A stretch of DNA of 49,691 nucleotides from a virus: the IMG/VR virus record IMGVR_UViG_3300042554_000720, positions 1 through 49,691 of that record. One strand, written 5' to 3'. Both the position numbers and the translations under genes were made by a program. Below the pieces are notes generated by a model. The model made no database searches. It was not told the DNA's origin and worked only from the letters and a program-made list of their open reading frames with translations. Every line of letters begins with the position of its first letter. Position 1 is the stretch's first letter. Shown piece after piece: positions 8,808 through 42,551 of this stretch.

Positions 8808-9609
8808 TGAATGCCTCACAAAGTGATGTAAGTTCCACGTAAGGAACCTCTTTAGGTTGTCTGTCAAATACAGCGTTTAGTTTGTGCGGGAACAACGCAG
8901 TCATTTCCTTGATGAACTTAGCTGCACCTACATGCCCCGCTGTGTCGTTGTCAAGCCACACCACCACTTGCTTAGGGTTAGTTAGTTCAGCAGGCCACGC
9001 ACCCTTGAGGGAAGTTCCAAGTAGTGCCACCACACTATAGCCCAAACTCCAAATCTTGTAGGAGGACAGCAAATCCTCTACAACAAACACAACATCGGGG
9101 TGTTCCTTACCAATAAGGTAGTGGTAGTATGTATAGGGCCTAACTCGTGTCGAGTATTTTACGGTGCCATTAAAGTAGCGCCGTTGAAATCCACGCAGTG
9201 CGTCACCATTATACACAGCAATTTGTAGATGGCCGCCTGAAGCACCAAACACTGCTGGAAACTCGTCAGGGTCAATTTCGTAGTGCAGCAGCCATAACGT
9301 GGCTTCTTCAGGTAGGTGTTTAGTGGAACGAAACATCTTGTCAAAGCCGCCTTCCAGCGTATCTGGAGGACGTGTTGTTATAGGTGACCAATGCTCACTG
9401 TTCCTAAAGTGACCACTACCACCGCAGTTGAAGCACTTGTATAGGTAGGCACCTCCCTTATTGATAACGTAGAGGCGCCGCTTCCTATCTACACCGGCAG
9501 GGCATGTGGCGTGGTTGTACTTCTCTTCATTGCCTACAGGCAACGAAGTCCAATCTACACCATTAGCTTCTAACTCTACCCTGGCATCCTTACCGAATTT
9601 CTTTTCCAT
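8800..9609 (-). CDS. DNA primase, zinc-binding and TOPRIM domains
   Basis: 269 residues. N-terminal zinc ligands: H33/C36 and C59-x2-C62 with H67 (KCFNCGGSGHF). A TOPRIM core follows: VVEDLLSS supplies the conserved Glu and VVWLDNDTAG the DxD. It resembles the primase half of T7 gp4, but here helicase is a separate protein, so this is a stand-alone primase that makes primers for lagging-strand synthesis. The C-terminal 30 residues may contact the helicase. Confidence 0.9.
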   Translation of the reverse strand: MEKKFGKDARVELEANGVDWTSLPVGNEEKYNHATCPAGVDRKRRLYVINKGGAYLYKCFNCGGSGHFRNSEHWSPITTRPPDTLEGGFDKMFRSTKHLPEEATLWLLHYEIDPDEFPAVFGASGGHLQIAVYNGDALRGFQRRYFNGTVKYSTRVRPYTYYHYLIGKEHPDVVFVVEDLLSSYKIWSLGYSVVALLGTSLKGAWPAELTNPKQVVVWLDNDTAGHVGAAKFIKEMTALFPHKLNAVFDRQPKEVPYVELTSLCEAFNG

Positions 9610-14079: not shown

Positions 14080-14619
14080 TTAGAACGTCGCCTCTTCAGC
14101 AGCCCGCGCCTTGAGTGCTTCGCGCTCGGTGCCCACGTTCGCGGCCACAACAAGCAGGCGGGATGCGATGGTTTCGAGTTGTTCATCGCTGAAGGGTTCG
14201 CGGGTGTCCTTGCCCATCAGCTTGATGAGGGCTTCGATGGAGTCGGTAACCCGGTCGAAGTCACTCTTCGCGTTCTGCAAATCACTCTTGCCACGCGGCA
14301 TCGGGTCGCTACCTTCCAAGACAATGTTACCACTGTCATCGCGTTGCCACACATCAATGGAGTTCATCACGGCTTTCTTGACGATGCACTTGGCACTGGC
14401 AAGGGAGTTTTTCTCATCCTTCGTCATCGGTCGGACGGCTTCCAATTCGGCACAGACCTTCGCATGTCGGGCGTCAAACGTGTTCTCGTCACGCGGCGCA
14501 TCCTCGTACATCGTGGCACGAACGTAGTTCGCCCAAAGGTTTGTCTTAGCGGCAGTACCTGCAACCTTAGCGGCAAGGGCATCGGCAACAGATTGGCGCA
14601 GGGCATTGATGGCGTACAT
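14080..14619 (-). CDS. Hypothetical protein, helical
   Basis: 179 residues, Ala-rich, charged and probably all-helical, beginning MYAINALRQSVADALAAK. No recognised domain. TAGGA stands 6 nt before the ATG. It is the first larger gene of the leftward unit, preceded by a hairpin at 14638-14655, so it should be made early and in quantity. GC content looks higher than in genes further along the operon. Confidence 0.75.
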   Translation of the reverse strand: MYAINALRQSVADALAAKVAGTAAKTNLWANYVRATMYEDAPRDENTFDARHAKVCAELEAVRPMTKDEKNSLASAKCIVKKAVMNSIDVWQRDDSGNIVLEGSDPMPRGKSDLQNAKSDFDRVTDSIEALIKLMGKDTREPFSDEQLETIASRLLVVAANVGTEREALKARAAEEATF

Positions 14620-14958: not shown

Positions 14959-15126
14959 TCACTTTCCTTTGATGATGCGAACAGTACCAACCTTCGTGGC
15001 GGGCTTTGTCGCAGGCTTGAAAACCACCGGGATAGCAAACCCGACGGGACGACGGTAACCCTTGCGTGTCGGACGACTCACATCGCCTGGATTCCAATTC
15101 AGGGTGGAATAGCCGGATTGTTGCAT
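14959..15126 (-). CDS. Small basic early protein
   Basis: 55 residues from ATG 15126, with AAAGG 6-7 nt upstream. Rich in Pro, Lys and Arg (PGDVSRPTRKGYRRPVG; TKPATKVGTVRIIKGK), with few acidic residues, so it may bind nucleic acid. A longer upstream frame is a shadow of the preceding gene. Function unknown. Confidence 0.65.
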   Translation of the reverse strand: MQQSGYSTLNWNPGDVSRPTRKGYRRPVGFAIPVVFKPATKPATKVGTVRIIKGK

Positions 15127-15610: not shown

Positions 15611-15652
15611 GGGGAATCGAACCCCCATGCGACCCGTCGGAATCGAACCGAC
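15611..15652 (-). ncRNA. Tandem hairpins with TTCGATT loops (T-arm-like / boxB-like)
   Basis: On the leftward transcript, hairpin 1 is GTCGG-TTCGATT-CCGAC (15652 to 15636) and hairpin 2 is GGGG-TTCGATT-CCCC (15625 to 15611), separated by 10 nt. Both have exactly the stem and loop of a tRNA T arm. Neither is preceded by an anticodon arm or followed by CCA. They start 3-4 nt after the BoxA spacer, the position boxB takes in lambdoid nut sites. Confidence 0.6.
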
Positions 15653-15662
15653 TGCAAATTGT

Positions 15663-15671
15663 TAAAGAGCG
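15663..15671 (-). promoter_or_regulatory. BoxA antitermination element
   Basis: Minus-strand CGCTCTTTA is identical to the phage/rrn boxA consensus, and it extends to CGCTCTTTAACAATTT as in bacterial rRNA leaders. BoxA in RNA is bound by host NusB-NusE to make RNA polymerase termination-resistant. Placed before a leftward unit of almost 20 kb and in front of two hairpins, it would allow long-range early transcription. No N-like protein was recognised. Confidence 0.65.
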
Positions 15672-15675
15672 GCAG

Positions 15676-15689
15676 TAGGGTAAACCCTA
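15676..15689. promoter_or_regulatory. Palindromic operator candidate A
   Basis: TAGGGTAAACCCTA, a perfect TAGGG-N4-CCCTA palindrome just upstream of BoxA on the leftward strand. Related sites occur at 16116 and 16586. Could bind a phage or host regulator. Confidence 0.4.
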
Positions 15690-15857
15690 AACAGTGAACC
15701 GTCCGTCTGCACGCCTAGCCTAGATACTCGCTCACTTTGGAGCCCTGATCCGCTAGCGGGTGCATCCCCTGCTGATGTCCCGAACTCTACACGGTATGAA
15801 TACCTGAGTAAAGCGCGGGGTTACTTGTTAAAGCAGCGCCTTGGTTTCCCTTGGCCT

Positions 15858-15878: not shown

Positions 15879-16085
15879 ATGGGATGAACTATGGTCTTCA
15901 ATCCTTACATGAGCCTTACACCATTGTAAAGAAACGTGAAGTCAAAAATAGTGAGCACTCACTCACTTATGCAGGCGCGACGCGCGATTGTCTAGACCGC
16001 GCGTAATGCGTGCGTGCATGCGATTACCAGGGCGACACAGACCATGTCCATAGGTGGAAACCCGTATACTATGTTAGCAGACACT

Positions 16086-16982: not shown

Positions 16983-17057
16983 GCAGGCGAGGAAGACGGT
17001 AATCCGCTGGCCTCATAAGCCAGAGACACTTGGTTCAACTCCAAGGCACTGCAACCA
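16983..17057 (+). tRNA. tRNA-Met(CAT)-like element, possibly degenerate
   Basis: A perfect 5-bp anticodon stem CTGGC-CTCATAA-GCCAG with CAT anticodon, a 5-nt variable loop, and a perfect T arm CTTGG-TTCAACT-CCAAG, then GCACTGCAA and CCA at 17055-17057. The 5' part is poor: only 4 of 7 acceptor pairs form (GCAG/CTGC) and the D arm is irregular and 2 nt short. It may be an unusual functional tRNA, a pseudo-tRNA or a tRNA-like leader processed by host RNases. It ends 13 nt before the first late gene. Confidence 0.5.
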
Positions 17058-40307: not shown

Positions 40308-42551
40308 ATGTACCAAAAGGATGTGACACAAGCGTTGACTCCCTCCACCCCCAGTGGACAAGGACAAGCCAATGCAGCTAAAGCTACAGGGATGTTTGCT
40401 GAAGCTCTACTTGGCGGTGTGAAACAAGGCATTTCTATTTTTGAAGATGTGCAGCAAGGTAAGTTTGCTACAGAACAAACTGCTCTTACTAGTAAGTTTG
40501 AAGAGGAAGGTGCTGCCCTTAAGGTAGAAGGTGGTAAACTCAAAGACATTGCGCCGTTCTTTGAAGAGGGCAAGGAAGACGACCCCGCGCTAATGGCGTT
40601 TAAAGATCGTCAGAAAGCATTTCTAGAAGCATCTAAGCAGTTTCCTAATAAGCATAAGGAAATGCGTCAGCGTAGTGGTGCCCTTCTTAAGGAATACATT
40701 GCCAAGTACCCAGGTCTTGCAGATGAGTTTCGTACTTCCAGTGCCAACATTACAGGCATTGGCCGGTTGGACCTAGAAAATCTTCGTGAACTCTACACAG
40801 ATGTGGAGTGGCTACAGAAGAAAGAGGCTGACGACGCTGCTGCTAACTCCAAAGCCCTAGAGCAACTACGTGATGCGTTTGTAAAGCAGCAAGTTGCTAC
40901 TGGAAAAATGGACGAGGTTAATGCTCGTGTACTGGCTTCTTCCATTACAACTAAGCAAATGCAGGAGTTGGCTGCTTCTACTCAAGAACAAACTAATGCA
41001 CAAGCTGCTGCTGCTGAATCCCTTAAGGTTGGTGGCTCACAACTACAGAGTTATGTAAACCATAAACGTACAGAGTGGGTGGCTAACTACCATTCCATTC
41101 TTGGTGCTGCCCATCTACAGCTAAACAAGATGGGCGTTACTAGGGCTGGTGCTATGACACCTGAGAAGCTGCAATCTCCTGAAGTGCGTAAGGTGTTGGA
41201 CGAGGCTGTGTCCACCTACTCCAGTGCCTTAGATAAGTTCTATGCTGAAGCTAGTGCCCGCTTAAATGCTTCGCTAGGTAGGGGTGATCCCACTGTGGGG
41301 CGGCAGGCTGTAAATGATCTACAGCAATGGTATGACAATGAGAAAAAGAATCTGTCACCAGATAACGTGTGGCTAAAAGCACTTACTCTCGAAGGACAAG
41401 ACGACAACAAAACTATTAAAGAGCGCAGTGAGCTAATTAACTCCATTCAAACTGGTCTTCGTCTTGACCCTATTGTACTCAGTACACTTCTCTACAGCAG
41501 CCCTGACAATCCCGGATATCAACAAATGCGGGCAGCCAATCCATATGCTGCTAAGTGGATTGAGTGGACTCGTAAAGCGCGTGAAAACCTAAACGGTAGC
41601 AGCGAGGACTGGGCCGCCGTGCTGGCCGACATGCGCAACTTGCAAGGCAGTGCGTCAGGGGCTACACCTCCCGGTGTGCCTACGACTCCTAGTGCGAAGG
41701 CGGCAAGCGCCCTAACACAGATGAATGACATTCAAGCTGTGCGCAGGTTGGCTCAAGGACAAGTACCAGAAGGCGTCAATCCAGTAGACGTGCTTAATGG
41801 CTTTCTAGCCAACAGCCTACGTACTGGTGGTAATGCAGACATGGCAAAGCAAGTGCTGCCTCTTATCAGTAAGGCTATGCAGCAGGTTCCTAAGAGCCAA
41901 CTACCTGCCGTACAAGAGAGGATGAAAACTCTCACTGACAACTTTGTTTACGGCTTTAACGGGGATGCTGACATTGCTAAGGCAACGATGCCGCCTAAGC
42001 CCGCTAAAGGATCACAAGAGGATAAACTAGGTGTAGTTACTAACTTTACTGACCTCACTGGTAGTACACCACTAGGCATGTCTAGTAGCACTACAGGTAC
42101 GGTTGGTCCGGGCCGTGTACAACTAGTTGCACGTATTCCACAACAAACAAACAGTGTGTTGTCAGCAGTGGATGCTAAACTTCTACTGCGTGCAGAAACA
42201 ACTGGTGAAGACATTCGAGAACTTCGCCGTCAATTCATGGAAGTGTTTAACCAAGATGGCGTTCCTAGTGAAAATCGCTCTCGTGCTTTGTCTAATGTTT
42301 CCACTGGTGGCGCTGGGTCCACCGGGGTTTCTTTAGGTAATCCTAACCTAGAGGGCACCAATAGTAATGTGATTTCACCTGCCTTACAGGCCCGTAGAGA
42401 CGCTGTAGCGGGCCAAGAGGCCCGTACAGCACTAACCCCTAGTGAGCGCCTAGACTACATTGCCAAACTAGAGAAGGCGCTGAAAGAGGAAATGTCTGTT
42501 GAGACTAAGGCATTCCTCAGTAGAGAACTAAAGATGATGCGAGGTGAGTGA
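40308..42551 (+). CDS. Internal virion protein (T7 gp15-like)
   Basis: 747 residues from ATG 40308 (GAGAGG upstream; longer frame to 40278 rejected). Helical, Gln/Ala/Glu-rich; its length is the same as T7 gp15. It would form the middle of the periplasmic DNA-ejection tunnel with the two preceding proteins. Assignment is by size, composition and order. Confidence 0.7.
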   Translation: MYQKDVTQALTPSTPSGQGQANAAKATGMFAEALLGGVKQGISIFEDVQQGKFATEQTALTSKFEEEGAALKVEGGKLKDIAPFFEEGKEDDPALMAFKDRQKAFLEASKQFPNKHKEMRQRSGALLKEYIAKYPGLADEFRTSSANITGIGRLDLENLRELYTDVEWLQKKEADDAAANSKALEQLRDAFVKQQVATGKMDEVNARVLASSITTKQMQELAASTQEQTNAQAAAAESLKVGGSQLQSYVNHKRTEWVANYHSILGAAHLQLNKMGVTRAGAMTPEKLQSPEVRKVLDEAVSTYSSALDKFYAEASARLNASLGRGDPTVGRQAVNDLQQWYDNEKKNLSPDNVWLKALTLEGQDDNKTIKERSELINSIQTGLRLDPIVLSTLLYSSPDNPGYQQMRAANPYAAKWIEWTRKARENLNGSSEDWAAVLADMRNLQGSASGATPPGVPTTPSAKAASALTQMNDIQAVRRLAQGQVPEGVNPVDVLNGFLANSLRTGGNADMAKQVLPLISKAMQQVPKSQLPAVQERMKTLTDNFVYGFNGDADIAKATMPPKPAKGSQEDKLGVVTNFTDLTGSTPLGMSSSTTGTVGPGRVQLVARIPQQTNSVLSAVDAKLLLRAETTGEDIRELRRQFMEVFNQDGVPSENRSRALSNVSTGGAGSTGVSLGNPNLEGTNSNVISPALQARRDAVAGQEARTALTPSERLDYIAKLEKALKEEMSVETKAFLSRELKMMRGE

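Follow-up and report, generated by a model that had tools for sequence, protein, structure and literature searches.

Genome organisation of the phage

The stretch of DNA analysed here, which we call the window, is the complete virus contig record IMGVR_UViG_3300042554_000720 (49,691 bases). The terminase shows about 55% identity to that of Methylophilales phage MEP401 and 48% to that of Vibrio phage ICP2, and these identities place the window with the Zobellviridae; judged by its sequence, it is a phage of the Zobellviridae type whose relatives include MEP401, ICP2, PA11 and CW02. The early and replication genes occupy the minus strand between about 15.3 and 0.3 kb, and more minus-strand genes lie at 46.5-49.5 kb, among them a ribonucleotide reductase (named from sequence, not by profile). 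The late genes are on the plus strand and start at 17.1 kb. The early operon is roughly 15-18 kb long, and none of the window proteins examined was recognised as a phage RNA polymerase. A tRNA-like element with a CAU anticodon (16983-17053, plus strand; 39.9 bits with Rfam, no ARAGORN call) stops 17 nt short of the first late gene, and its T-arm sequence is conserved in another contig (L007, near 430-500).

Two early proteins are needed for what follows. The first is a basic protein of 55 residues (14959-15126, minus strand), encoded close to the start of the early operon and kept only in contig L089 among the loci compared, where it is 72% identical. The first-pass annotation saw no N-like protein in this DNA, which holds as far as a recognised N is concerned, but the 55-residue protein is the sole N-like candidate by size, charge and place; a Pfam search with it gave no match. 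The second, a protein of 179 residues (14080-14619, minus strand), is the first widely conserved early gene and served as the leader anchor in relatives. At the DNA level the window leader and late region show no similarity to known phages, or short matches at chance level only. A pattern search for relatives of the CobT-like protein found none, and relatives were found instead through TerL and CobS-like queries.

The early leader and its closest relative

The untranslated early leader is preceded by a presumed promoter marked by the direct repeat TGTAAG-N5-TGTAAG (15904-15920, minus strand), which recurs in many related leaders at 9-10 nt upstream of TATAAT-like boxes. In the window a -10-like CATAGT is found at 15893-15888, and transcription would start near 15880; sigma-70 and terminator scans of the leader remained at chance level. 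The repeat, with its 11-bp period, resembles binding sites of OmpR/PhoB/CpxR-type response regulators. It is also present at window position 8827 (plus strand), and 2-5 copies are arranged in tandem promoters in the leaders of L091, L100, L101, L105, L109 and L118.

The leader contains a boxA on the minus strand, i.e. CGCTCTTTA at 15671-15663, running on as GCTCTTTAACAATTT (15670-15656). The exact match claimed in the first-pass annotation was thus confirmed by direct reading. The sequence fits GYTCTTTAANA, the published gammaproteobacterial boxA consensus (PMC5725501). Only one further match occurs in the window (41414-41424, minus strand), and it is antisense to a late gene. By the published definition (PMC10250234) a boxC (UCUGUGUGGG) lies 18-19 nt 3' of boxA, and no UGUGUG is present in 15655-15611, i.e. 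within 45 nt after boxA. The missing boxC lowers the case for strict membership among ribosomal (rrn) sites, but not the claim of action through boxA; what the window shares with rrn sites is a GYTCTTTAANA-type boxA in a leader that is presumably transcribed.

Three other parts of the leader had not been noticed in the first-pass annotation. Firstly, a hairpin with the layout TAGGG-TTTA-CCCTA (TAGGGTTTACCCTA, 15676-15689, minus strand) ends 5 nt upstream of boxA, which is the position of boxB in rrn leaders. Taken alone, this hairpin does not stand out from shuffles (P 0.33); the trend is seen across the family (see below). Secondly, a degenerate boxA, GCTGCTTTAACAAGT, is located at 15823-15837 (minus strand), about 165 nt upstream of the consensus copy, and the aligned position of L089 has the exact boxA GCTCTTTAACAAGT. 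Thirdly, the interval between the two boxA positions is spanned by a block of 135 nt (15842-15708, minus strand) that is better conserved than the rest of the leader and includes CAAAGT-GCGAGT-TAGGCG at 15739-15712. Single-sequence folding of the leader gave a z value of -1.2 for the window, which is not significant, and -2.0 for L089, and was not used as evidence.

L089 (IMGVR 3300044635_001017), the closest informative relative, has a CobS-like protein 69% identical to that of the window and can be aligned across the leader. Its upstream boxA, CGCTCTTTAACAAGT, is followed by the 135-column block (89% mean identity with the window), and it keeps CTCTTTAACAATTT exactly at the position of the consensus boxA of the window. 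On the 3' side of boxA the two sequences are unrelated; L089 has a different hairpin there, CAGGGTAAACCCTG. The alignment points to boxA and the upstream block as the conserved parts of the leader. A covariance model built from the window and L089 (R1) found nothing else above noise; its best weak match, 11.8 bits in the boxA leader of phage Klyazma, is not claimed.

The T-arm-like hairpins

Downstream of the consensus boxA, after a spacer of 10 nt, there is a 5-bp hairpin GTCGG-TTCGATT-CCGAC (15652-15636, minus strand), and after another 10 nt a 4-bp hairpin GGGG-TTCGATT-CCCC (15625-15611, minus strand), so that two hairpins with identical loops and different stems are indeed present, as first described. 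The predicted pair probability in a 200-nt context is about 0.98 for the first and about 0.75 for the second, and the latter falls to 0.29 in a 110-nt context. The 11-mer GGTTCGATTCC equals the tRNA T-arm consensus and has exactly two copies in the 49.7-kb window, both at this site and within 37 nt, therefore the pair is not a chance occurrence. However, none of the relatives examined has TTCGATT hairpins, not even L089 with its conserved boxA, and the exact boxA-to-TTCGATT pattern was found nowhere in the viral contigs searched.

A search for GGTTCGATTCC occurring twice, 8-20 nt apart, returned 86 viral contigs. Several of those examined have the two copies inside phage tRNA arrays, in genes with a tRNA-like fold and a long variable arm that bears a T-loop sequence ahead of the true T-arm, and the spacing of the window pair is similar. 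Examples are L236:4318-4394 and regions near L227 458-540, L221 4790-4890, L276 1430-1530 and L249 240-340, with the copies 12-20 nt apart; most of the genes examined score below the cut-off of the Rfam tRNA model, and ARAGORN calls some of them tRNA-Ser or tRNA-Leu. In a further viral contig a Glutamine-II riboswitch match of 42 bits was seen (L230:6030-6084, minus strand). A tRNA-derived origin of the window hairpins is plausible. It is quite unlikely, on the other hand, that the leader as a whole is tRNA-derived and that the hairpins act as RNase P or RNase Z sites, a possibility raised in the first-pass annotation, or as decoys for T-arm enzymes of the TrmA/TruB type. Such a role would agree with the paired T-arm consensus and with the similar pairs in phage tRNA-like genes, but neither ARAGORN nor Rfam calls a tRNA at the site, the pair is accompanied by no acceptor, D or anticodon arm, and the sequence, as read, has no flanking strands able to pair as an acceptor stem. 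The lack of conservation speaks against it as well, and exact matching of a 23-mer gave no source genome for the fragment.

The same hairpins bear on a lambdoid type of nut site, in which an N-like protein, perhaps the 55-residue basic protein (15126-14959), would bind them as boxB. The order of boxA, a 10-nt spacer and a hairpin is the nut geometry, and a small basic protein near the operon head, conserved in L089, is what this explanation asks for. Nevertheless we regard it as unlikely. The protein is present in L089 although the hairpins are missing there, which weakens the N-type reading; moreover the loop is a 7-nt T-loop and not a GNRA-like boxB loop, relatives have no such hairpins, and the protein is without a Pfam match. 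The hairpins look private to this one virus and are probably a lineage-specific, tRNA-derived addition that is dispensable for the core function.

boxA in the early leaders of the Zobellviridae

We searched 23 phage records and further contigs for boxA and checked the positions against the annotation. About a dozen relatives have sense-strand copies in their early leaders, often 2-3 per leader and about 165-310 nt apart: ICP2 (27000 and 27255), Saratov-15 (9048 and 8765), CW02 (41700, 41940 and 42166), PA11 (43587 and 43897), PQ867839 (705, a variant, and 933), 1.253.O (46717 and 46445), Klyazma (in the terminal repeat), Pecta (49229), VpV262 (544, where the leader position is inferred) and the contigs behind L130 and L136. 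The second copy of CW02 closely follows TTGACA-N17-TATAGT. Two boxA positions with RNA between them, as seen in the window, are found in several relatives. In six genomes with bounded leaders 10 out of 15 matches to GYTCTTTAANA fall within 1.4% of the strand positions; the binomial P of about 7e-16 is indicative, as the leaders were delimited after seeing the matches, and the enrichment is very large despite these post hoc limits. A reversed-pattern control gave zero matches in one of the boxA searches. Matches at MEP401 6840 (minus strand) and CVT22 29626 (plus strand) lie inside genes and were counted as chance, and CTCTCTTTAACAAGT in L130, L134 and L135 was dropped as a boxA candidate, being far from the leader in text that is conserved as if coding. 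The consensus boxA is absent from the leaders of SIO1, ICBM1, MEP401, GP100, RIO-1 and others, including alphaproteobacterial phages; many contigs of the nearest clade are without it too, and most show degenerate forms only. We found no report of boxA in Zobellviridae in the open-licence literature, and an earlier description is possible.

Most of 18 leader boxA sites have a stem-loop that ends 0-8 nt upstream. Tested against dinucleotide shuffles, this preference has a combined Fisher P of 1.5e-6, and of 6e-6 without close relatives. Clear cases are CW02, with GAAGCGGCAAGGCTTC-ATT-boxA and GAAGCGATACAGCTTC-TAA-boxA, as well as Klyazma, ICP2, L136 and VpV262. Ribosomal operons carry boxB, boxA and boxC in this order, directly behind promoter P2, and their boxA is both required and enough for recruiting the factors, whereas the boxB of lambda nut sites is bound by N (PMC10250234). 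With its hairpin 5' of boxA, the family resembles the ribosomal boxB-boxA order and not the lambda nut order. The nut-like, host-Nus-dependent antitermination originally suggested for the window thus stands in one part: the leader boxA is conserved across the family in position, strand and sequence, and recurs in early leaders when relatives are inspected, as had been proposed for a check. The TTCGATT hairpins as boxB find no such support, since they recur in none of the relatives examined.

It should also be considered whether boxA represses expression here, as has been described for suhB (PMC5725501). In PA11 and Pecta one boxA is placed directly before a small ORF, which would suit repression. 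The boxA of the window, however, lies more than 350 nt upstream of the first plausible start of an ORF, and tandem copies heading a long operon fit processivity better, so we consider repression highly improbable.

A pseudoknotted leader RNA in related contigs

Anchoring leaders on the 179-residue gene revealed an RNA common to about 17 distinct sequences (alignment A3), which in these Zobellviridae-like contigs immediately follows the early promoter (e.g. L118:4391-4490, L138:4399-4498, L101:4721-4820 and 14 more early leaders). In helices P2 and P3 100% of the cells are paired, and 7 of the 9 pairs show changes on both sides; helix P1 has such changes in all 4 of its pairs, and the loop interaction PK2 (84% of cells paired) in 2 of 3. 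As the structure was proposed from the same sequences, the controls and not the raw percentages carry weight: the covariation score is 0.507, whereas shuffles gave 0.172 and slid structures no more than 0.192. The pseudoknot PK1 is paired in 61% of the cells as aligned, with one subclade out of register; by eye, this subclade appears to have complementary strands of its own. Rfam gave no match on a related leader, and Rfam 15 gave no relevant match on the window leader. The RNA may represent a new class.

The relation of this RNA to the 135-nt block of the window deserves a comment. The ordered motif CAAMGT-GCGAGT-TAGGCG occurs, within 5.4 million strand-bases, only in the window, in L089 and in members of the pseudoknotted-RNA family, in the early leader every time. 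The motif was chosen after inspection, and the covariance model of the family (R2) has no significant match on the window block, therefore we consider the kinship likely but unproven, with only the ordered motif in common. One may then ask whether the folded leader RNA is itself the active element, either as a put-like antiterminator or as a protector of the 5' end, with boxA auxiliary or vestigial. The window block is, after all, the best conserved part of its leader, and related contigs without boxA still bear the strongly covarying pseudoknotted RNA at the corresponding place. However, the covariance model misses the window block, many boxA-bearing relatives have no such RNA by these models, and we consider this explanation rather unlikely.

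Proposed mechanism and comparison with known antitermination systems

The common picture of antitermination in phages is of a lambda-like system (N plus nut), a Q-like one, or one that depends on put RNA. The explanation that we consider probable is that the site in the window is an N-independent boxA antitermination element of the rRNA-operon type, placed in the early leader and recruiting host NusB/S10. Host RNA polymerase would start near 15880, and the nascent leader would expose boxA to host NusB-S10, which, together with NusA, NusG and SuhB, could render the polymerase Rho-resistant over the early operon, as extrapolated from the rrn operons. The hairpin that immediately precedes boxA would stand in for the rrn boxB, and the conserved RNA that separates the two boxA positions may be of support to the complex or to the transcript.

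It is useful to compare this leader with the systems that are already described. The rrn antitermination site (boxB-boxA-boxC, acting with NusA, NusB, NusG, S10, S4 and SuhB) has an identical boxA, a leader position after the promoter, a hairpin 5' of boxA, which in the phages is a family-wide trend, and a second boxA further along the transcript. The differences are that the phage site drives protein-coding genes, that no boxC-like sequence is found near boxA, that both boxA positions are in one short leader and that, in the window, T-arm hairpins come after boxA. The lambdoid nut sites with N, known from lambda and, as neighbouring cases, from the mEpimmI nut sites and Gp17 of mEp021 (PMC11893012), share with the window the phage early leader, the boxA and a hairpin shortly 3' of it. 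They differ in that the window has no recognised N, its 3' hairpins have a 7-nt T-loop and are not conserved, and the family hairpin is 5' of boxA. The use of boxA outside rRNA operons has precedents upstream of CRISPR arrays (Stringer et al. 2020, as cited in PMC7862264) and in suhB (PMC5725501); those are cellular genes, whereas here boxA is found in the early leaders of lytic phages, usually in tandem. HK022 put RNA (PMC9378689) is comparable as a structured part of a phage early leader for which no phage-encoded antiterminator is known to be required, but the window leader has a boxA, and the likeness to put is one of description.

A wider generalisation is possible, and we offer it tentatively as less likely than not to hold: Zobellviridae leaders might form a new antitermination class, with tandem rrn-type boxA and/or a pseudoknotted RNA and no phage antiterminator protein, which would make host polymerase processive over the whole early operon, the window carrying both elements plus the T-arm hairpins. 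The results also point to a structured RNA outside Rfam that is directly testable. If the proposed mechanism is true, these phages would provide natural variants for asking what boxA alone does outside rRNA, and it would be explained how long early operons are read in phages for which neither a polymerase nor an antiterminator is known, i.e. a lytic phage family would borrow the ribosomal boxA of its host without an N protein.
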